A program made the translations under genes and the position numbers. A stretch of DNA of 64,000 bases from Paracyclopina nana. Taxonomy: Eukaryota > Arthropoda > Copepoda > Cyclopoida > Cyclopettidae. The notes beneath the pieces were generated by a model that saw only the letters and a program-made list of their open reading frames with translations, was not told the DNA's origin and made no database searches. Shown here piece after piece: positions 28,707 through 46,308 of the stretch (position 1 is its first letter; the number at the start of each line of letters is the position of its first letter). Location: positions 15,562,001-15,626,000 of the forward strand of contig JAGUCH010000001.1 of assembly GCA_019096065.1 (NCBI GenBank). The letters are read 5' to 3'.

Positions 28707-31075
28707 ATGAGCTCAAGCAGCATCGAAGTGATCGCTGTAAAGGATCCTGGCGACTTTGTCGTCCAGGACGTCAAGGCAAAGGTGGGAAATTTCATGCTGA
28801 AAGGCGCCATTTTGTTCACTCTCAAAGCAAAATCGAGTGGACAGGTGAGCAAAATCAAAGCAGACAAGTCGGGAAAACCTGTTAAAATTCTTCATAAATC
28901 TGGCGCCGAAGTGAAACATGGGTAAGACAATTATGCACTTTAATTATAAATTACATATAAATATGTTGCTTGCTTGAAAAGGGATCCAATCCTTGAGTTC
29001 TTGGCTGGCGAGTGCGACCATCCGACAGTGATGAAAAATATGTGCGCTGAATGCGGAGCTGATCTGGAGCAAGACATGTCAATGGTACCCTCGTTGAAAG
29101 CTTCAAACGCTCCAGCTTCCATTGCCATTGTACATAGCATTCCAGAGTTGAAAGTCAGTTCGAACGAAGCTCAAAATCTTGGTCGTGAAGATGAACAGAG
29201 GTTGCTCAAGCAGCGCAGGCTGGTTTTACTGGTTGATTTGGACCAAACACTGATCCACACTACAAATGAAAATGTCCCTCCCAACATGAGAGATGTTCTG
29301 CATTTCCAATTATATGGGCCCAAGTCGCCCTGGTACCACACTCGCATTCGACCAGGTACAACCAGTTCATTAATTATGATTGAGTACCTTTGATTCAAAC
29401 ACATTTTGCAGGAACTGCCGATTTTTTGAAACGCATCAGCTCTTTGTATGAGCTGCATATTGTCACCTTTGGTGCTCGACTTTATGCTCACACAATTGCC
29501 AAGTTTCTCGACCCAGACTCTAAATACTTCTCTCATCGAATTCTATCAAGGGACGAGTGCTTTGACAGTCGGTCCAAGACCGCCAACTTGTCTTCACTTT
29601 TCCCTTGCGGTGACCACATGGTGTGCATCATTGACGACCGCGAAGATGTGTGGAACTATGCACCAAACCTGGTACACGTGAAGCCCTACATCTTTTTCAA
29701 GAACACTGGGGACATCAATGCTCCACCTGGATCCTCGAGGACGTCCAAGACGACTGAAGCTGCAAATGAAGATTTGGGACCAGAACGGAGAATTGAGAGG
29801 AGGCAAAGCATTGACATGCCAACCATTGATGAGGACAACGCTCCTGTAACTGTCATCAAGGATGACAACAATGAGAGCAATAAGAAGAATGACGATGACA
29901 TATCAATGGTTTCAGACGACCTAGAGCTCTCTGACGAAGAGTCGAATTTGGAGCCTGCAGTCAGAACTAAAGACGCCGACAAAAAGGAAAAAGAGGGCGA
30001 GGAGTCGAGCGAAAAGAAGGCAGACCAGCAAGATGATGAATCAAAGTCCGAAGAGGACGACCTGATCGAAATGGAGGATCACGATGACTACCTATTGTAC
30101 CTGGAAGACATTTTGAAAAGCATTCACAAAGCCTACTACGACTTGTTTGACCAAATGAAGTCTTCGAACAGGGAGCAAGAGGCTGGTGAGATCCTGGATA
30201 AGAGCCCGGATTTGAAAACTGTGATCCCCTATGTGAAACGCAAAGTCTTGCAGGGCGTTAGTATTGTCTTCAGTGGGGTCGTGCCCACCCATATCTCGCT
30301 GGAGAAGTCCAAAGCGTACATGGTGGCCAAGACGTTGGGAGCAAAAGTTCACGACAGGATATCGAAGGAGACAACCCACGTGGTTGCAGCACGAACTGGA
30401 ACAGCAAAGGTGAACGATGCCAGGAAGAGGAAATCGATCCAACTTGTCACTCCAGATTGGCTGTGGTGCTGTGCCGAAAGATGGGAGAAGGCCGATGAGA
30501 GGCTTTACCCTTTATACAAGTCTGCACCAGTCACCTTAAAGCCACCTGCACATTGCTCCAGTCCTGAAATTGCGTTTGCTGAACGATGTCCGACGCGTGT
30601 ACAGCACCAGAATTCTCAAAGCCTGCCAGAGTCGATGAACCCTTTTTTGGCATTCTCCCATGAAGACCTTAAAGGGATGGATAAGGAAGTGGAAGATATC
30701 CTCTCTGGAGAATCGTCCAGCTCTGACGATGAGGATGAAGGAGAGGAGAAAAAGGCAGAGTCTTCCAGCGAGGAGTCCATGACTGGGGAACTGCCCAAGG
30801 GACAAAAGAGGAAAAAGCCCGTGAATGACGATGACGAGGATGATGGACCTGCTGACAGGTTTCGCAGAGGTGAGGATGTCCCCAGCGACTACGAAATTGC
30901 CAGCCAGAGTGACGATGACGAGGATAGTCGCATTCAAAGCAGTCAGCCCAAAGGAGAGGATGATGACGATGATGACGACGACGAGGAAGAAGATGACGAA
31001 CTTGGTGCCCAACTGGAGCGAGAGTTTCTTGACCAATGTAATTCCAACTCATCGTTTGCCAATGATGATCAGTAG
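28707..31075 (+). CDS. Fcp1: RNA polymerase II CTD phosphatase FCP1 (750 aa, three exons)
   Basis: FCP1 (CTDP1) dephosphorylates the C-terminal domain repeats of RNA polymerase II, mainly Ser2-P, recycling the enzyme in the nucleus. Exons: 28707-28921, 28982-29355, 29412-31075; the introns are only 60 and 56 nt. The N-terminal biotinyl-like region is followed by a Cys/His segment (CDHPTVMKNMCAECGADL) typical of FCP1. The catalytic DxDxT motif is DLDQT with Asp157 (nucleophile) and Asp159 in the FCPH domain, which continues through RIRPGTADFL and CIIDDREDVW. A BRCT domain spans about residues 478-565 (SIVFSGVVP to LVTPDWLWCC). The tail is extremely acidic, with a run of Asp codons near 30958-30990, as expected for TFIIF and polymerase contacts. 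At 750 residues it is shorter than human FCP1 (961). It shares a promoter region with CENP-L and its stop is 66 nt from that of the S17 gene. Confidence 0.97.
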
Positions 31076-31136: not shown

Positions 31137-31142
31137 TTTATT
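31137..31142 (-). terminator. Polyadenylation signal overlapping the mRpS17 stop codon
   Basis: Plus-strand TTTATT gives AATAAA on the minus strand. It shares one base with the TAA stop codon of the S17 gene, so that mRNA would have a 3' UTR of only a few tens of nucleotides. Confidence 0.65.
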
Positions 31143-31828
31143 TAAGAAATAATTGCGTAGGGATCGGGCTTGTCAAAGACATGCCACTTTTTGTAGGTTC
31201 TTCTGTAGGTAAAGTCTCGCTTGTTCTTCTGCGATCCTCGCTTTGGAGCCTTGCTGTAGTCAAAGTCTCTCTGCGACCTGCCATACAATTGAGCAGTGGC
31301 TTCAATCTCATGACGATATCGGTCCGCCACAACGGGTTCATTCGTGGTAGGTTCGATCACGTCTCCCAACTTGTGGATGATATTGGTGATTTCGTGAGTG
31401 ACGTCTCTTTTCTTGACAACCAGCTTGTCAACACTTTTGGGCTCCCACCAAGCGCCCTCGGCAGCCTCTCGGAGGTTCAGAGAATCGGCATATTTCACTT
31501 CAGAATCGTCCAGCTTTTTGATCAACACAATATCACCTTCTTCGGCTAACTTTTGAGGATCTTTCACGGAGAAATCCCACTCGTGTTGGAAAAAGGCTTT
31601 AAAGTAGGCGTCGTACACTTGGTACGGCACACGCACCTCGATTTCCCGTTTCTTCAAGCCAAGATCACCGGGACGAAATCCGGAAGCTTCTTCGTATGGA
31701 GTCCGACCTGGAAGAACTCTCCCGATCAAAACACTTGATTCTAGAATAGGGCTGTGAATTCTGTTGAGTTTGAGAGGTGCCAGCCGCCACATGGCCGTGG
31801 CGGCGTGCATGGCTTTGCTCGATGCCAT
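31142..31828 (-). CDS. mRpS17: Mitochondrial small-subunit ribosomal protein S17 (228 aa, single exon)
   Basis: A component of the mitochondrial small ribosomal subunit belonging to the bacterial uS17 OB-fold family. The coding exon is intact, starting at the ATG (MASSKAMH) that opens a basic, hydroxylated N-terminus suited to mitochondrial import. The S17 core is recognisable: SSVLIGRVLPG, then EEGDIVLIKKLD, then HEITNIIHKLGDVIEP, which lines up with GDIVLLRAL and HELAEIVFKVGKVIDP in human MRPS17. At 228 residues it is much longer than the 130-residue human protein. The extra length lies in the N-terminus, in an insertion around YDAYFKAFFQHEWDF, and in a basic C-terminal tail rich in Arg, Lys and aromatic residues. 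It is divergent from Rab2 and convergent with FCP1. The family call is good; the extensions are not explained. Confidence 0.82.
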   Translation of the reverse strand: MASSKAMHAATAMWRLAPLKLNRIHSPILESSVLIGRVLPGRTPYEEASGFRPGDLGLKKREIEVRVPYQVYDAYFKAFFQHEWDFSVKDPQKLAEEGDIVLIKKLDDSEVKYADSLNLREAAEGAWWEPKSVDKLVVKKRDVTHEITNIIHKLGDVIEPTTNEPVVADRYRHEIEATAQLYGRSQRDFDYSKAPKRGSQKNKRDFTYRRTYKKWHVFDKPDPYAIIS

Positions 31829-32672
31829 TTTGCGGAAAAATCCGAGCTGCTTTAATTTTTGTTTACTTTTGGTGAAATACAACAACAAAGCTAGGGCTGA
31901 TTTAAATGTATTGATGCAAATACTGTAGAAACATAATAATGACATAAACACTTTTTAATATTATCGTTCAATATTTGTACAATATCTACTGAGCAACATT
32001 TTTATGGAAAAATGTGTTGATTAAATTCATTTGATCCTACTTTTTAATTGACTGTTAGACTGGTTCAAAATATCCTAACTTTTGACAATGATAACACGCT
32101 GGGCTGTTGGAGAACTGTAATTCGGTTTTAAATCAAAGAATACATCCGGAATTAGGTGAATAGAAAAAGCTAGTGTTTCTAGTGTTTATCTAGAAAATTG
32201 ATCTGACTATTTGGGTAAAAATGGACTTTATCAAGGTTGACGTCATTCAAATATGGCTACCAGTTTACTTCTTTGCATTCTGGCTTCTTTGAAAGAAAAA
32301 GTTGGCTTTTTCTGAAATATGGCGTCTGGATGTCAGTCTGCAAGGCTGACAGCTAAAGTTGCCAGTGTGACCAGATTTCTATTTCAGTAAAAAAATTAAT
32401 TCTTCATTTGAATTGTTTAGCTTTTTTATAATTAACAATGAACAGAGAAAAATGTTTTTTTGAACATTGAATCTTTTGATGCATTGTGCATCGATGACGT
32501 TTTGGCCACTTAAAGTGTGAAAAGTCTGGTAACACGGCCTACAAAGACAGAGTTTTGTTGAAGAGCAGCTGGTACGGAAAAAGCTACAACTTTTTAGCTG
32601 TAACATTTGGTGTGACGTTTTAGCTGCTGCATTCTTAAACGGCCTTTTTAGCTCCCAAGGACCTTGGCCAAG
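31829..32672. promoter_or_regulatory. Intergenic region between mRpS17 and Rab2
   Basis: These 844 bp separate two divergent start codons. Most is AT-rich with no open frame of note. A block with higher GC near 32480-32660 (CATCGATGACGTTTTGG, then the leader before the Rab2 ATG) is the likely Rab2 promoter and 5' UTR. No TATA element is obvious. Confidence 0.45.
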
Positions 32673-39148: not shown

Positions 39149-39739
39149 TTATTTAGCTTCTCTTCCTGGCGTACTTAGGCCGTATTTGGCCTTCATGGCC
39201 ATCAACTCGGCCTCCTTTTTGTCAGCATCGACCTTCTTGAAGGCCTTATTTGATTGGTAATACAGCACAACTAAATATCGGTTACACACGTTAAAACCAC
39301 TCAGGTGATCACAAGCATTTTTGGCATCAAAAATGTCCTCATAGACAACAAATGCAGTTCCTCTCGTCTCGGGCGTATTGCCTACACGAATTTGCCGAAT
39401 GGCTCCATATTTGCCAAAAATGTCGTACATTTCTTCAGCTGTGATTTTGTAGGGTAAATTACGAACGTAGAGCACTCTGTTCACCTCTGGAGGTAACCGA
39501 ACCTGCAATGGAAAACAGTGCAACTTCAAATTAGCGAGAAGGATTTGATGCTTGAGTATATAAAGTGCTTTACAACATGACCTCACTTTGCTATTCTAAC
39601 CTCTTAAAAATACCTTTCGCAGAATCATGTCAAAAAATTGCAGTTTTTCAACTTTAATTCTTGAAAAGCTCTGCTTAAGTGACATTATGTAAAATTATAT
39701 TGAGCAACTTACATTGAGACGATTTCTGTTCATCGCCAT
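39149..39739 (-). CDS. SF3B6: Splicing factor 3B subunit 6 (SF3b p14), 126 aa, two exons
   Basis: SF3B6/p14 is the small RRM subunit of SF3b in the U2 snRNP, contacting the branch-point adenosine region and SF3B1. Exons: 39739-39713 and 39502-39149 (381 nt). The short first exon encodes only MAMNRNRLN and the second contains the whole RRM: RNP2-like VLYVRNL, RNP1-like GTAFVVYED, and the conserved [15 protein letters not shown] and [19 protein letters not shown] segments. The length of 126 residues agrees with the 125 of the human protein. It is divergent from the COX16-COA3-TFB1M cluster, sharing a 624-bp promoter region. Confidence 0.97.
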
Positions 39740-40363
39740 ATTGCCTTTGTTTGTGAATTTCAGAAAGAGCCGAGTTAACTTCGCCGATTTGACGAATTTT
39801 ATTTTATTTTTTTGTTATTATTTCGTCGACTCGCCGACGTTTTTCGCCCAAGCGCCTCTCTCATTGACGATGGATCGAAATAAACCCGTCGAGCTTTCTA
39901 CACAAAAAAGGAAAGCCAAAATACAGCATAAAGTAGATCATGTGACTCACCAACGGACAACATAATAAAGATCGTTCAAGAGTTTGATTAATAAAAAGGG
40001 TATATTATCTAAAGTCGTTGATTAATGCCATTAATATCACGAATGAGGCCTTAAAATAAGTAAGTCGTAAAAATTCAAAATAAGCTCGATTTAAGTCAGT
40101 CTTCGCATATCAAGGTAATTATTATTGAAAATAATATAACATGATTCAAGTTGCTTCGGTATAAAAAAATCTCAAAATATTTAGACAAGTTTAGTCATTA
40201 TAGCCAGACAATGGTGATATAACTACTGAAGAACACGGTTTAAAAATAATTTTAAACGCCTTAAGAAAAGTTGTTCGGTTTCCTATTGAGTGTTTACTAA
40301 CTTTCGCAACTCCATTGCCATTTATGATTTATGTAAAAAACCGAGATTTTGTCAGCATGGATA
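39740..40363. promoter_or_regulatory. Divergent promoter region of SF3B6 and the COX16-COA3-TFB1M cluster
   Basis: These 624 bp between divergent starts must drive SF3B6 and the mitochondrial gene cluster. An unspliced 31-codon frame at 39870-39965, followed at once by AATAAA, lies inside but looks incidental. A pyrimidine/CG-containing block (39765-39880) is the likely SF3B6-proximal promoter. No TATA box is evident. Confidence 0.5.
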
Positions 40364-40371
40364 ATGTTTGA
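40357..40371 (+). promoter_or_regulatory. Short uORF overlapping the COX16 start
   Basis: ATG GAT AAT GTT TGA (MDNV then stop) begins 7 nt upstream of the COX16 ATG in another frame and ends inside COX16 codon 3. Ribosomes starting here would miss the COX16 start unless they reinitiate, so it may tune which cistron is read. Confidence 0.5.
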
Positions 40372-40747
40372 TAATTTGCGGAGATTAGTGCAAAATCGAC
40401 ACTTTAAATTCGGTGTGCCTTTCATCGGGCTTTTGGTCGGCTCTTCGTTTGCCCTAACTGAAGTGACATCGTTCAGATACGAATTTCGCAAGACGAAAAA
40501 GCTCGAGCAGGAGGAAATTGAACAGCTTAAAGCCAAAGGCATCATTAAAAGGGACCCCAACGAGCTGTCACTGGAAAACTTGTACGATGAGTACATGAAG
40601 AAGGACTACAACGAAGATTACGACAACTTGAGAATTCCTCGGCCTTGGGAAGAAGGCGAAAATCCTGTGGATCAACAGAGAAAAGCGAACAAGAGAATCA
40701 AATCTGTCCGAGAAGCTAAATCATTGCTGTCATCGTCCTCAACTTGA
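40364..40747 (+). CDS. COX16: Cytochrome c oxidase assembly protein COX16 (127 aa, single exon)
   Basis: COX16 is an inner-membrane factor that helps insert or metallate COX2 (and COX1) during complex IV assembly. One intact exon. After a short matrix-side start, FGVPFIGLLVGSSFALTE forms the single transmembrane anchor (about residues 16-34), followed by a charged intermembrane-space region that ends in the family signature LRIPRPWEE, matching IRGPRPWED of human COX16. The length of 127 compares with 106 in human; the extra residues are a Lys/Ser-rich tail. The start at 40364 was chosen as the first ATG in frame; its context is weak. The frame contains only two further ATGs, near 40587-40595. 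The stop is 6 nt before the COA3 ATG, so it is probably the first cistron of a shared mRNA. Confidence 0.88.
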   Translation: MFDNLRRLVQNRHFKFGVPFIGLLVGSSFALTEVTSFRYEFRKTKKLEQEEIEQLKAKGIIKRDPNELSLENLYDEYMKKDYNEDYDNLRIPRPWEEGENPVDQQRKANKRIKSVREAKSLLSSSST

Positions 40748-40753
40748 ATTAAA

Positions 40754-41140
40754 ATGGCTAATTTACTTCGTGGAAGAGCCGCTACCCTTTGCCGCTTCAT
40801 GTCAAGCAAGCCCATGGAGCAAGTAAGTATTCTCTACTCATTATCTTTATTCAGTCGTTTCACTTTCGTCGATTCAAAGGTCAACGTGGATGCTCCCAAT
40901 GTGCAAAAGACGCTCGGCAACGTTAACATGAATTTGATCCGGAAGGCTGAAAAGCAGAATTTGGCCAGGGCTGAAAAGCACATTCAAAACAGAAAGAGAG
41001 ACTGGACGATTGGAGGAACTTGCTTTGCCATAGCCATTGGCATTTATGTGTACACCATTTGGGCAATCAAGCAAGAGACCTTCCTGGATGACTTTGAAGT
41101 ACCCAATCCTTTGCCCGATGAAGATGAGCCAAAGAAGTAA
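40754..41140 (+). CDS. COA3: Cytochrome c oxidase assembly factor 3 (COA3/CCDC56), 109 aa if spliced
   Basis: COA3 is a single-pass inner-membrane protein of the MITRAC complex that stabilises newly made COX1 and couples its translation to assembly. The conserved core is KRDWTIGGTCFAIAIGIYVY followed by AIKQETFLDDFE, aligning with the human transmembrane segment and SISQERFLDELE. Two models exist: an open 387-nt frame (128 aa), or splicing of a 57-nt, in-frame intron (40823-40879, donor GTAAGT, acceptor CAAAG). I favour splicing, because it gives 109 residues against 106 in human, and 56-60 nt introns occur in neighbouring genes. The ATG has A at -3 and G at +4. It starts 6 nt after COX16 and stops 5 nt before TFB1M. 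In Drosophila COA3 and mtTFB1 share a bicistronic transcript. Confidence 0.88.
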   Translation: MANLLRGRAATLCRFMSSKPMEQVSILYSLSLFSRFTFVDSKVNVDAPNVQKTLGNVNMNLIRKAEKQNLARAEKHIQNRKRDWTIGGTCFAIAIGIYVYTIWAIKQETFLDDFEVPNPLPDEDEPKK

Positions 41141-41145
41141 ACGCA

Positions 41146-42313
41146 ATGGCCTTTAAGCTGCCAGACACTTGGAGGCGAATGCCTCCACTCCCCACTACCA
41201 GGGACTTGCTAAGAATCTATAATATCAGAGCAAAGAAGTCTCTGTCGCAAAACTTCATCATGGATCCTCGCATATTGCAAAAGTTTGTCAAAGTTGCTGG
41301 AAAGATTGATGGTCATGTTGCCATTGAAGTCGGCCCTGGCCCAGGAGGCATCACCAGAGCAATCTTGGATGCTGGAGTCAAAGAATGCCATGTGGTTGAA
41401 AAAGACCCAAGATTCCTGCCTTCCCTCAAGTTGATCAAACACTCTGTGGGCCCTGAGCGGCTTCACATTTCTATCGGAGACTGTCTTCACTACAACATTA
41501 CAAGTAGGTGCCATGCTAACTGCTTATTTTTTCACATTCTAAATCATCCGTCATGTTGTAGAGATGCTTGAAGAAAAGGTCCAGCCAGTCACTTGGGATT
41601 CGCCCCAAAAGCCAGCCTTGACGATTTTTGGCAATTTGCCATTCAACGTGGCAACTCCATTCCTCATTCGACTCATCAAGTCCATATCTGATCAAAGTAA
41701 CTTTTTTACCTACGGACGAGCCACGTCTGTCCTTTGCTTCCAACATGAAGTGGCCATGAGGATGTGTGCTCCAGAGCAGAATTCTGAACGGTGCAGGTTA
41801 TCAGTCATGTGCCAGAATTGGGCTGACGTTCACTATGCCTTCAATCTGCCCGGAGGTGCGTTTGTGCCACCTCCCCAAGTCGAGGTTGGAGTTGTCAGAC
41901 TGACACCACTCAGAGAGCCCTTCATAGATTTGCCCTTTGCTTTTGTGGATCAGGTTGTCAATGCCTTGTTTTTAGGAGGCAAAAACAAGTATGTCAACAC
42001 AACGCTAAAAACAATTTTTTTAAAGCATGGAGTCTCACCCAAGGAGGCCCGTGAACTAGTGAAAGAATTATTGAAGAGATGTGACATTGATCCAAACTCC
42101 ACTGCTGTCGCCTTGAGTCTGAGTGACATCAAGGCTTTGTGCTTTGGGTACAAGTTGCTCCTCGAAACTCATCCAAGTTTGAAGTGCAATGCGAGCCTGG
42201 ATGATGATGATGTTGCTCATCTCGAAGCCGACTCTGACATTGAATACGTTGGAGAACAGACTCTTAGTCTCAGTGTAGTGAAACCGCCTACCAAATATGT
42301 TGTTCAGTTTTGA
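41146..42313 (+). CDS. TFB1M: Mitochondrial 12S rRNA dimethyladenosine transferase 1 (369 aa, two exons)
   Basis: TFB1M (mtTFB1, KsgA/Dim1 family) dimethylates two adjacent adenines in helix 45 of mitochondrial small-subunit rRNA, needed for mitoribosome assembly. Exons: 41146-41503 and 41562-42313, with a 58-nt intron. Motifs in order: KKSLSQNFIMD (about 30-40), SAM-binding EVGPGPGGITRAIL (61-74), VVEKDPRF, and the catalytic NLPF at 144-147 (NLPY-type), then SVMCQNWADV and FVPPPQVEVGVV. The C-terminal four-helix region ends with a short acidic extension. The ATG has G at -3 and +4 and lies 5 nt after the COA3 stop, leaving no room for a separate promoter unless it lies inside COA3. The first AATAAA downstream is at 42680. 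Confidence 0.97.
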
Positions 42314-44129
42314 CTTTTGCTTATGAGCAACTTTTGGGAAATACACGCTATGCAACAAAATCCATGGCTTTAAATTCATGTAAGCAAATCCTGCACAAGC
42401 CTTTTAAGTCCAATTCCACATGAAGGCTTTATGTGTTGCATTTCATCAACAACGAGCGTGCATCAAAGCTAGATTTAAGCACTGGCTTCGAGGCCTTTCA
42501 TCCTACGTGAAAATGTTTTATAATCGTGATCAAGGAAAAAGCGACGAAAATCAGAGTAGTAGCTCAAAAGGACAATCCGATTTGAGCACAAGCTACTTTA
42601 TTTGTAGCTATAAGGTCATGTGAGGTGGCAGCAGAAAAACTTGCTTAGTGCAGCTTAAGACAAAAAGTGTAATATGGGTAATAAAAGTGATTTATGTGAC
42701 TTTTTATGTCAACAACAAAGTACGCCCCATGTTAGCTATTTTCAATCAACACCATTAAAAGAGCATTCTAAATGCGAAATAATTCTCGCGTCAACATTTC
42801 GCTATTTTTTGAAGAGAATTAATTTGGCCGATTTTTGACTTGAAGGTATTTGTCTGAGCAGTGAATGATATAAGCTCAAGCTAATTATCCTCAACATTGT
42901 GGCTAATATGAGAGAGCATTTCTGGAGTCTCTTATTAATGATTTGCTTCCTCTTCCGCTAACATTAATAAATCTTTTGCACAATTTTTCAGCATAAAAGA
43001 GAGCGTGACATGCAACATTAAGCATGCAAGACTTTCTCTAATTATAACAGTAGCGGTAACAGGCGTGGCAATCTGAACTATTGATTCAACGGCTGTTTTA
43101 TATTGCCAAAATTCAGCGGCTCATTGCGTAAAATATGACTTTTGAAATATCTAGTGCTTTTGATTGCATAAAATATGCGAATCTTAAATTGGCTAATCAA
43201 CAGAATTTGAAAAAGCAATGAAATGCTGTAGTGAAAGTTGCTGCCAATGCCCTATAAAAGATTGATTGGTTCTTTTGTATAATTCCTGAGCAAATTACAC
43301 TCAAAACATACCATTATGTGCATTAGAATGTAGTAGTATGTGGGTGCATTCATTGCAGACCCGACTTCTTTCTCCCATTGTGCTTTGTTGCAAACCTAAT
43401 CAATCCTGGCCTCAGCTTTGCATGGAACATACAAAGTATAATGTTTGACCAATCGTTCCTGGTACATTAGACCAGAAAACCAGAGCTCCATTAAGTATTT
43501 TTGCTGCTTCAAAGGTCAAGTTTCAAGTTGGCCAGATTGATCGATTTTCTACGAGGTTTTATCAATTGTTCAATCAATGTAAGCCTTTCTCTTTTTGCCT
43601 CACATAAAATATTTACATTTTTACCTTTCCAATAATGAGTAATTTCTGGTATTCCATTTGGGCTCAAAAATACAATAATTCACTCTAAAATGAAAGCAAA
43701 ACAGAGAAACAAACAGTGGGGTAAACAATGAGAAAGCTACTTCAATGGGCTTAAGTTATTTGAAAATATAGATATGAGTACCAAAGAAAGTGAGATGTTT
43801 ATCTACATTTGGTAGCAAGTAGAAAGCTATTCATAGAAGGTTTTTATCAGAAAGAGGTAGCGCTGGTGGGCGGGGCTTACCTAGTTAGGCGCCCTCAGTT
43901 TGTACGGAGGCTTTGATTTGTCAAGTGCTACATATCTTTTAATACTTTTGCTACAGAAAGTCCAATTTGGTAAATTCTTTTCTTGGTGTACAATTACAAA
44001 TAAAAATGCTGATGTGCGGAGAAAGCTGTTTTTTTTCCAGATTTGTTGGTTGCATGTTAAAAAACTCCTTCTATTTCCGTTTACAGCTCAGTGTTCAATC
44101 AAAATGCTGCAAGAGTCAAAGACTAAAAA
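42314..44129. other. Intergenic region between TFB1M and the orphan GPCR
   Basis: About 1.8 kb of AT-rich sequence without a supported gene. It includes the TFB1M 3' UTR. The stretch before 44130 contains acceptor-like sites (CCGTTTACAG ending at 44088), suggesting that the orphan GPCR has an untranslated first exon in this interval. Confidence 0.5.
42680..42685 (+). terminator. Candidate polyadenylation signal for the COX16-COA3-TFB1M transcript
   Basis: AATAAA 367 nt beyond the TFB1M stop, the first such hexamer downstream on this strand. None was seen after the COX16 or COA3 stops, in line with a common 3' end. Confidence 0.45.
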
Positions 44130-44133
44130 ATGA
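44104..44133 (+). promoter_or_regulatory. uORF overlapping the orphan GPCR start
   Basis: A nine-codon upstream frame starts at 44104 and its TGA (44131-44133) overlaps the receptor ATG (44130-44132) in an ATGA arrangement, a layout compatible with termination-reinitiation. Confidence 0.45.
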
Positions 44134-46308
44134 ATGAGACAGCCGAAGCCAGGAACGTGACAACAAATGGTGAGCTACCACAAGAAAGCTCTTTGCTGTC
44201 TGATGCTCTAGGCTACCAAGCTGAAGAAGTTTACCTACTCAACAAACCCATACAATGCATCCTGATATCATTAATTATCTCAATTGCCATTGTCTGCAAC
44301 AGTCTAGTCATCCACAACATATGGAAAAGCCAGGTAAACAAATTAGCTAACCACATCATCGAATCACTCAAAACTTTAAGCCAAGTAGCAACTGCTATTC
44401 AGGTTGAAAGCAGAAAAGTTGTTACGGGCTTGCATTGCAATAATGGATCGATAGGGCAAAAGTTTAGCTTTTCATTATCTGCCAATGCAAAGCTCGAGTG
44501 AAGTTGTTGTAGCACTAGAAGCATTAATAATCTGCTTAAATTTTTTTATTGTGGAACATTCACAAAAGTAGCAGAACAAAGTTGAGAACAAAGACACAAA
44601 ATTCTGCAGGTTTTGGAGCAAACTTTTCCACTCACAGCACAGCAGTTGCTAAGGAGTTTTATGCACTTTTTGGCTGTAACAAATGACTCTGGGAAAAGGG
44701 AAAAAATCGTGGCCACTTCTTACAAAGCCAGGAGCTACAGCTCTGCTTTATGCTCACGAGGAGGATTTAAAGGCAAATGCCTTTTTTCCCTTGCAGCTGA
44801 AGATGCGAACTGTGAACTTTCTGCTGATCAAAAACTTGTGTATTGTGGATCTCATTGGAGCCTTTGTAGTCCTGCCATTTCCATTGGTAGCCACAGCCAA
44901 AGGCCAATGGGACTTTGGGGATGCCATGTGCACAGCCAACTCCATCGTGAATGTGGCCTTGTGGCTCCAGCACATCGTGATGTTTGCCATGCTCAAAATT
45001 GACAGGGTTCTTGCCTCTTGCTTGCCTTTCGGAAAGTACCCTCTCTTGGGGGTGGAGGCTGTGACAGGCATAGTGATTTCTTCCTGGGTAAGGGAACTAA
45101 ATGTCATGAAATAATGGAATATGTTTCAAAATCATGCTTCAGGTCTTGTCCTTCTTTGTGGCTGGCCTTGTTACAGCCTTGTTCAAGTCTGCCTATGAGC
45201 CTGCTGTAGTCCTTTGCATCCCTGAACTGCCAATTGGTTTCTTCATCACCATTTTCAGTGTTTATTGCATGGCCCTCCTGGGCATGGTTGGTGGCTACAT
45301 TGTGGTGCTCATTTGCTTGAAGAGGAAGCAAGCTCACATCCAAAACACAAATGCAGTGCAGGCCACAGATTACAAAGGCCTGGAAAGAGCAGCCTTGACC
45401 AGGTAAGTTTCGCCTTTTATTGCTTACATGAATTATTGCTTGAATTTACATTTTTGCTTGCAGTTTCCTCATCACCATCAGCCACTTTTTATTGTATGTT
45501 CCTACTATGCTGGTGATAGGCTTGCATGGCTGGTTTTTGCACCCCATTGCAATTCTTTGTTGTGACATGGTTGTCTACTCGGAGTTTCTGATCCACCCTG
45601 TGGTCCTTCTAAGCACTTCCACCAAAATGAGGCAAGAAATCAAGCACACCCTGTACAGACTCTGCCAAATTGTCATATCAGTGTCCCTGTCTGAAATCTA
45701 CTGGTACACCAAGACATTCCTCCTGAAGAAAAATAAGGACCAAATGTATGCTGTGAGGTCACCAGAGGTCACCAGGCCCCCTGCTGAGATCATCACAAGG
45801 TCACCTGTAGTCTATACTGCAGTGAGGTCACCACCACCCACTGTGGCACCAAATATTCCTAACAGCAATAGTACCAAAGAGCTCACCTCTGTGGTCATCC
45901 ATGAGCAGGTGAGAGTATAATTTTTAAAGCATTAGGATTTCATTGATGAGATTCCATAAATTACAGGCTAGTCACAGACTTGTTGCTGATGATGACCATG
46001 ATGTCATTGTAGTGGTGAAATCTCCACCAAAGAGGCAGCTATCCTTAGACCAAATGTTTTCAGAAGAAAGAGTAATAGCCAGTTGTAACAAGAGACATCA
46101 TAGCATCCATTTACCTCCACTTTTGACATCCTCTCAACAATTGGATTGGTTGGCAAAGCCAGCAGTTTACTTGCTCCCAACCAAGGCTTTCATACAAGGC
46201 CAAAATGATCAAGATTTAGAACTAGGCTGTGACCACATTGAAGAGCTGGACTCCATTGAGTTGCACTTTGAGCAGAATGAAAAGAACCAAGACGAAGTAT
46301 TCATTTGA
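44130..46308 (+). CDS. Orphan class A-like GPCR with atypical signature motifs (513 aa, five exons)
   Basis: A seven-helix receptor of unknown ligand. Exons: 44130-44333, 44797-45087, 45143-45402, 45464-45908, 45967-46308 (1,542 nt, phases agree). TM1 lies at about 40-63. TM2 has the class A Asp (CIVDLIGAFVVLP, Asp86), TM3 has the disulfide Cys (Cys113), and TM4 ends with Trp165. TM6 keeps its Pro (LLYVP). However, TM3 ends IDRV instead of E/DRY, and TM7 reads EFLIHPVVLL, lacking the NPxxY Tyr. The cytoplasmic tail of about 170 residues contains imperfect repeats of V/T-R-S-P (VRSPEV, TRSPVV, VRSPPP), likely phosphorylation or SH3/WW-type contact sites. The extracellular N-terminus has NET and NVT sequons. 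I do not recognise the orthologue. A polyadenylation signal lies 35 nt downstream. Confidence 0.85.

Follow-up and report, generated by a model that had tools for sequence, protein, structure and literature searches.

The window analysed here is a stretch of 64,000 nucleotides of the genome of the cyclopoid copepod Paracyclopina nana. On its forward strand, COX16, COA3 and TFB1M follow one another as separate complete ORFs with minimal spacers, an arrangement characteristic of a polycistron (Table 1). The COX16 product matched the whole PF14138 profile (positions 1–79 of 79) with 69.5 bits against a curated Pfam cut-off of 27, and COA3 reached 54.5 bits with its family (curated Pfam cut-off, 27). 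The two TFB1M exon frames scored 36.1 and 72.9 bits in Pfam with PF00398, both above the curated cut-off. These scores and a reading of the sequence confirmed the three identities, the common strand and the two spacer lengths given in the preliminary description. The YxYT...KQExFLDDFE block of COA3 (CCDC56) is conserved in a 14-row alignment. TFB1M contains GPGPGG and NLPF motifs, and its best match among PDB sequences is mitochondrial dimethyladenosine transferase 1 (245.7 bits), compared with at most 94.6 bits for bacterial KsgA, 68.1 bits for other eukaryotic dimethyladenosine transferases and 22.7 bits for TFB2M. By these PDB matches the protein is nearer to TFB1M than to the other branches of the family, and it is predicted to be the 12S rRNA dimethylase. 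Among the 120 listed of 923 TFB1M homologues, all rows with a named organism are arthropod, Tigriopus californicus coming first with 47%. The N-terminal stretch of two of these relatives (P0051 and P0054) resembles, by eye, a partial repeat of their own start.

Table 1. Features of the COX16-COA3-TFB1M locus, with positions in the window.
Feature	Position	Strand	Remarks
Divergent intergenic region, presumed promoter	39740..40363	.	624 nt, from the SF3B6-like start (-) to COX16; putative promoter role
uORF (M-D-N-V-stop)	40357..40371	+	Strong start context; runs across the COX16 ATG out of frame; present if the mRNA 5' end lies upstream
COX16	40364..40747	+	127 aa, intronless; PF14138, E 3.2e-19
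Spacer 1	40748..40753	+	6 nt, ATTAAA
COA3 exon 1	40754..40822	+	Start context AAAATGG
COA3 intron	40823..40879	+	57 nt, GT-AG, open in frame (no in-frame stop)
COA3 exon 2	40880..41140	+	PF09813; spliced protein 109 aa
Spacer 2	41141..41145	+	5 nt, ACGCA
TFB1M exon 1	41146..41503	+	Start context GCAATGG; GPGPGG motif
TFB1M intron	41504..41561	+	58 nt, GT-AG
TFB1M exon 2	41562..42313	+	PF00398; spliced protein 369 aa
Presumed poly(A) signal AATAAA	42680..42685	+	First AATAAA 3' of the TFB1M stop; putative function

The locus had been described as three intact frames. This holds for COX16, which is unbroken, but COA3 hides an intron of 57 nt, and TFB1M carries one of 58 nt and hence is not a single intact frame, so that splicing is needed for the 369-residue protein. 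The COA3 intron is supported by the homologues: both flanks of the junction are visible in 9 of 13 and contiguous in all 9, the remaining four starting later or diverging at the junction. The COA3 start at 40754 is backed by N-terminal extensions ahead of the conserved core in P0001, P0002 and P0007; P0006 and P0009 start at the core, without such an extension. Gene calls from codon statistics over 264 kb (the window and 20 further stretches), for which there was little training data, included numerous shadow or overlapping frames and none of the three target genes. Elsewhere in the window, an FCP1-like phosphatase frame (29384–31075, + strand) converges with a frame on the other strand (31142–31954), with 66 nt between their stops; the latter has a sub-threshold match to ribosomal S17 (23.3 bits; cut-off, 25.9).

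The whole genome (92 Mb, 10 contigs) was searched with the corresponding families, in a search that reads exon by exon. COX16 and COA3 each had a single match genome-wide, at the locus described here. Besides the two TFB1M exons, the RrnaAD family had two matches on contig C8, which look like exons of a single gene. Upstream of COX16 lies a divergent gene with an RRM_1 match within 39149–39430 (- strand) and a start, read by eye, at 39739; the sequence suggests an SF3B6-like protein. On the downstream side, an ORF beginning at 44130 follows the TFB1M stop after 1816 nt; it has no Pfam match and lies beside a 7tm_1 match at 44680–45114. A 67-aa ORF in this interval (42420–42623) matched no Pfam family. 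With flanking gaps of 624 and 1816 nt, dense packing is not general here, and the tight spacers between the three genes appear to be more than chance.

Two gene pairs known as di- or bicistronic in Drosophila were used as positive controls within the same genome, where they occupy three loci. One is sloth1-sloth2 (SMIM4-Brawnin), bicistronic in Drosophila with the spacer GCAAA (PMC9681215, in excerpts); the other is Mocs2 and CG42503, a dicistronic locus in Drosophila (PMC4528330, in excerpts). MOCS2A (ThiS) and MOCS2B (MoaE) were found 6 nt apart (locus L034, 1204–2451); the MOCS2B frame there encodes 322 aa and extends far beyond the MoaE domain at its C-terminal end. The SMIM4-Brawnin pair is present twice, on contig C4 (7893313–7893720, - strand) and on contig C6 (2204344–2205209, + strand; L030–L033 for both). 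In the C4 copy the SMIM4 stop lies 12 nt before the Brawnin ATG, and spliced SMIM4 matched UPF0640 with 100.6 bits over profile positions 3–65 of 67 (63 positions). In the C6 copy the two genes are 14 nt apart, the last SMIM4 exon, without a Pfam match of its own, having been assigned by its likeness to the C4 copy. All three control loci are thus at bicistron-like distance, and the spacers of COX16-COA3-TFB1M fit the same class.

A search for chimaeric records among 169 homologues (36 of COX16, 13 of COA3 and the 120 listed of 923 of TFB1M) gave one clear case. In this COX16 record, P0024, 122 of the 123 residues aligned with P0022 are the same, and the COX16 part is followed by a 25-residue stretch matching the N-terminus of the COA3 homologue P0007 (68%, E about 1e-7). 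Unless the record is chimaeric, the COX16 and COA3 frames lie on one molecule in that relative; P0024 may be an assembly chimaera. The other 35 of the 36 COX16 homologues had no COA3 match at E 0.01. Weak matches to P0007 also occurred in five of the 120 listed TFB1M rows (of 923), inside the N-terminal region of these proteins themselves (E 0.006–0.010, about 25 bits), and were set aside as chance.

The lengths of the longest contigs were also compared between the families. They are equal, at 1973 nt, for COX16 P0015 and COA3 P0007 (both from source jgi), and again, at 1957 nt, for P0026 (jgi) and P0009 (jgi and lgn). These two same-source COX16/COA3 coincidences compare with 0.13 expected from jittered lengths (P 0.007; 0.8% in a repeat). 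COX16 P0019 and TFB1M P0051 are both on contigs of 2108 nt, about the size expected of the spliced tricistronic mRNA, a coincidence that is not significant alone (P 0.14; comparison with the closest TFB1M rows of recorded length, 14 in number). With 109 TFB1M rows, two same-source coincidences with COX16 were found (2108 nt, and 1514 nt for P0031/P0101) against 0.44 expected (P 0.07); the 1514-nt contigs are too short for three frames and hence reflect chance or another arrangement. No same-source equal contigs were found between the 13 COA3 rows and either 14 or 109 TFB1M rows. Cross-source equalities also occur, at 1973 and 1293 nt (109 TFB1M rows), and equal size does not prove that two frames are on one contig. 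One sequence source, 'merc', is presumably a marine metatranscriptome assembly. For the closest relatives, P0014, P0001 and P0050, the longest contigs differ (1196, 1118 and 1529 nt) and indicate no linkage; P0014 ends in an unrelated tail. A comparison of the COA3 alignment with genome contigs gave no relative with DNA of the cluster, and COX16 had no match in viral contigs. The viral-contig loci L005–L007, retrieved with the COA3 query, have only a 13-residue match and were dropped as unrelated.

Together, these results suggest that COX16, COA3 and TFB1M probably form one transcription unit, expressed as a spliced and polyadenylated tricistronic mRNA. Genes 6 and 5 nt apart are probably on a single mRNA, and spacers this short cannot accommodate separate 3' and 5' UTRs. 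The claim of one transcript for the three genes, made in the preliminary description, is favoured by the spacers, the lack of any other COX16 or COA3 match in the genome, the in-genome controls and, indirectly, the relatives; its argument from polyadenylation, considered below, fails. Transcription would begin in the divergent region 5' of COX16. Removal of the two short introns, one in COA3 and one in TFB1M, and addition of a poly(A) tail 3' of TFB1M would leave a mature mRNA of at least about 2 kb that carries three distinct cistrons. What we infer are the single mRNA itself, its ends, the way in which it is translated and the benefit of co-expression.

Access of ribosomes to the later cistrons was evaluated on a model mRNA beginning at 40321, an arbitrary leader start. 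The start context agrees at one of the two key positions in COX16 and at both in COA3 and TFB1M. Two weaker ATGs lie in this model leader further 5' of the uORF. Four COX16 relatives (P0015, P0017, P0018 and P0026) share HVGL(T/I) just ahead of the COX16 start, their sequences differing farther upstream; as read from these sequences, the motif may represent a conserved 5' leader or a short uORF. After the COX16 start, scanning ribosomes would meet just two further ATGs before that of COA3, and one of the two opens a three-codon frame; leaky scanning, or passage through a short ORF, could therefore bring them to COA3. Some ribosomes would accordingly pass the modest COX16 start and arrive at the strong COA3 start in one of these ways. 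Nine ATGs lie between the start of COA3 and that of TFB1M; four are in the +1 frame and share a stop whose end is 8 nt beyond the TFB1M ATG, and COA3 itself terminates 5 nt ahead of that ATG. Depletion of out-of-frame ATGs was seen neither in COA3 (6 observed, 5.1 expected) nor in COX16 (1 observed, 1.6 expected). Given nine ATGs and no depletion, ribosomes would scarcely get to TFB1M by leaky scanning alone, and the lack of depletion counts against a model built purely on it. With the ATGs and stops so placed, reinitiation is the likelier route, and TFB1M would be reached mainly in this way; an additional internal transcript start for TFB1M is possible. In the excerpted work on the sloth genes, the second frame is inhibited by the first, to a degree tuned by start context (PMC9681215), and the same logic is described for green algae (PMC11291117, in excerpts).

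The first spacer consists entirely of ATTAAA, a common variant of the poly(A) signal, and a weaker hexamer, AGTAAA, overlaps the COA3 stop. The statement that no polyadenylation hexamer follows the first two stops is thus incorrect, and the argument from missing poly(A) signals falls because ATTAAA sits in spacer 1. Placed immediately 3' of the COX16 stop, this hexamer could end a COX16-only mRNA. It is one of the points in favour of a mixed locus, where the tricistronic mRNA would be accompanied by shorter forms that supply much of the protein, for example a COX16 mRNA ended at ATTAAA and a TFB1M mRNA started inside COA3. The nine ATGs ahead of TFB1M point the same way, as does the report that dicistronic loci of Drosophila are also expressed as monocistronic mRNAs, for one gene in 69 of 159 and for both in 45 of 159 (PMC4528330, in excerpts). 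However, one of the SMIM4-Brawnin spacers contains a similar hexamer, TATAAA, which makes ATTAAA weak evidence, and we regard a mixed locus as unlikely.

Three independent genes that are merely packed together, each with its own promoter within the coding sequence ahead of it and with UTRs that overlap, would suit a genome as small as 92 Mb. This arrangement is nevertheless quite improbable, since the neighbouring genes lie 624 and about 1816 nt away, so that packing is not general locally, and since the P0024 record of a relative joins COX16 and COA3.

Still less probable is a nematode-style operon whose pre-mRNA is resolved by spliced-leader trans-splicing. Calanoid copepods do have a spliced leader, of 46 nt (PMC4664967, in excerpts), and shortly 5' of the COX16 ATG there is an acceptor-like TTTTGTCAG (40347–40355), which could accept a spliced leader or end a 5'-UTR intron. 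According to excerpts of the same study, however, cyclopoid and harpacticoid data yielded no such leader, and neither spacer, ATTAAA or ACGCA, contains an AG that could serve as splice acceptor. The AG nearest 5' of TFB1M adjoins the COA3 stop and is preceded by a purine-rich stretch. Resolution by a spliced leader had been considered unlikely in the preliminary description too, partly for want of a pyrimidine tract. That part of the reasoning is weak because the acceptor of the COA3 intron itself, TTCGATTCAAAG, is poor in pyrimidines; it is the absence of AG that rules the spacers out. An assembly artefact that collapsed longer spacers is barely credible, as the contig is 17.8 Mb long, the known bicistronic pairs of this genome are short-spaced as well, and P0024 of a relative joins the same two genes.

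Through a tricistronic COX16-COA3-TFB1M mRNA, two assembly factors of cytochrome c oxidase would be produced together with the 12S rRNA dimethylase of mitochondria. The cluster is most likely a tricistronic unit, the known Drosophila COA3-mtTFB1 pair extended by COX16, which may have joined the pair or have been lost from it elsewhere; in the open-licence literature searched, neither this cluster nor COX16 as an additional cistron was found described. A stronger version, in which the three genes are an old arthropod unit translated solely as a tricistronic mRNA and the Drosophila bicistron is a remnant after COX16 loss, is doubtful, if conceivable. If true, it would mean that an old arthropod unit fixes the ratio of COX1/COX2 maturation factors to modification of the mitoribosome small subunit. 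A unit that unites two complex IV assembly factors with a 12S rRNA enzyme would offer a natural test of whether polycistrons are kept for product balance. Together with the MOCS2 and SMIM4-Brawnin loci, it provides several loci in one genome for studying how ribosomes gain access to later cistrons. A single mRNA for three nuclear genes of mitochondrial proteins would be unusual in animals, though not unprecedented.

The closest known system is the bicistronic Ccdc56/Coa3-mtTFB1 mRNA of Drosophila, reportedly described by Peralta et al. in 2012. As there, COA3 lies directly 5' of TFB1M on the same strand, here with a 5-nt spacer; the present locus differs in that COX16 precedes the pair, across a 6-nt spacer, and in that its shared transcript is a predicted one. 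With sloth1-sloth2 (SMIM4-Brawnin), the locus shares small mitochondrial assembly factors, a spacer of a few nucleotides and a weaker first start followed by a stronger second one. That pair, however, encodes two presumed paralogous peptides linked to complex III, whereas the proteins here are three, unrelated, and concern complex IV and rRNA (PMC9681215, in excerpts). MOCS2A-MOCS2B has the same 6-nt spacer in the present genome as that behind COX16, but serves cofactor synthesis and has two cistrons. Nuclear tricistronic mRNAs are rare in animals, the Drosophila annotation holding nine tricistronic or tetracistronic sets, that is, loci of more than two genes (PMC4528330, in excerpts). Like these loci, COX16-COA3-TFB1M would yield more than two proteins from one nuclear mRNA; it differs from them in gene content.
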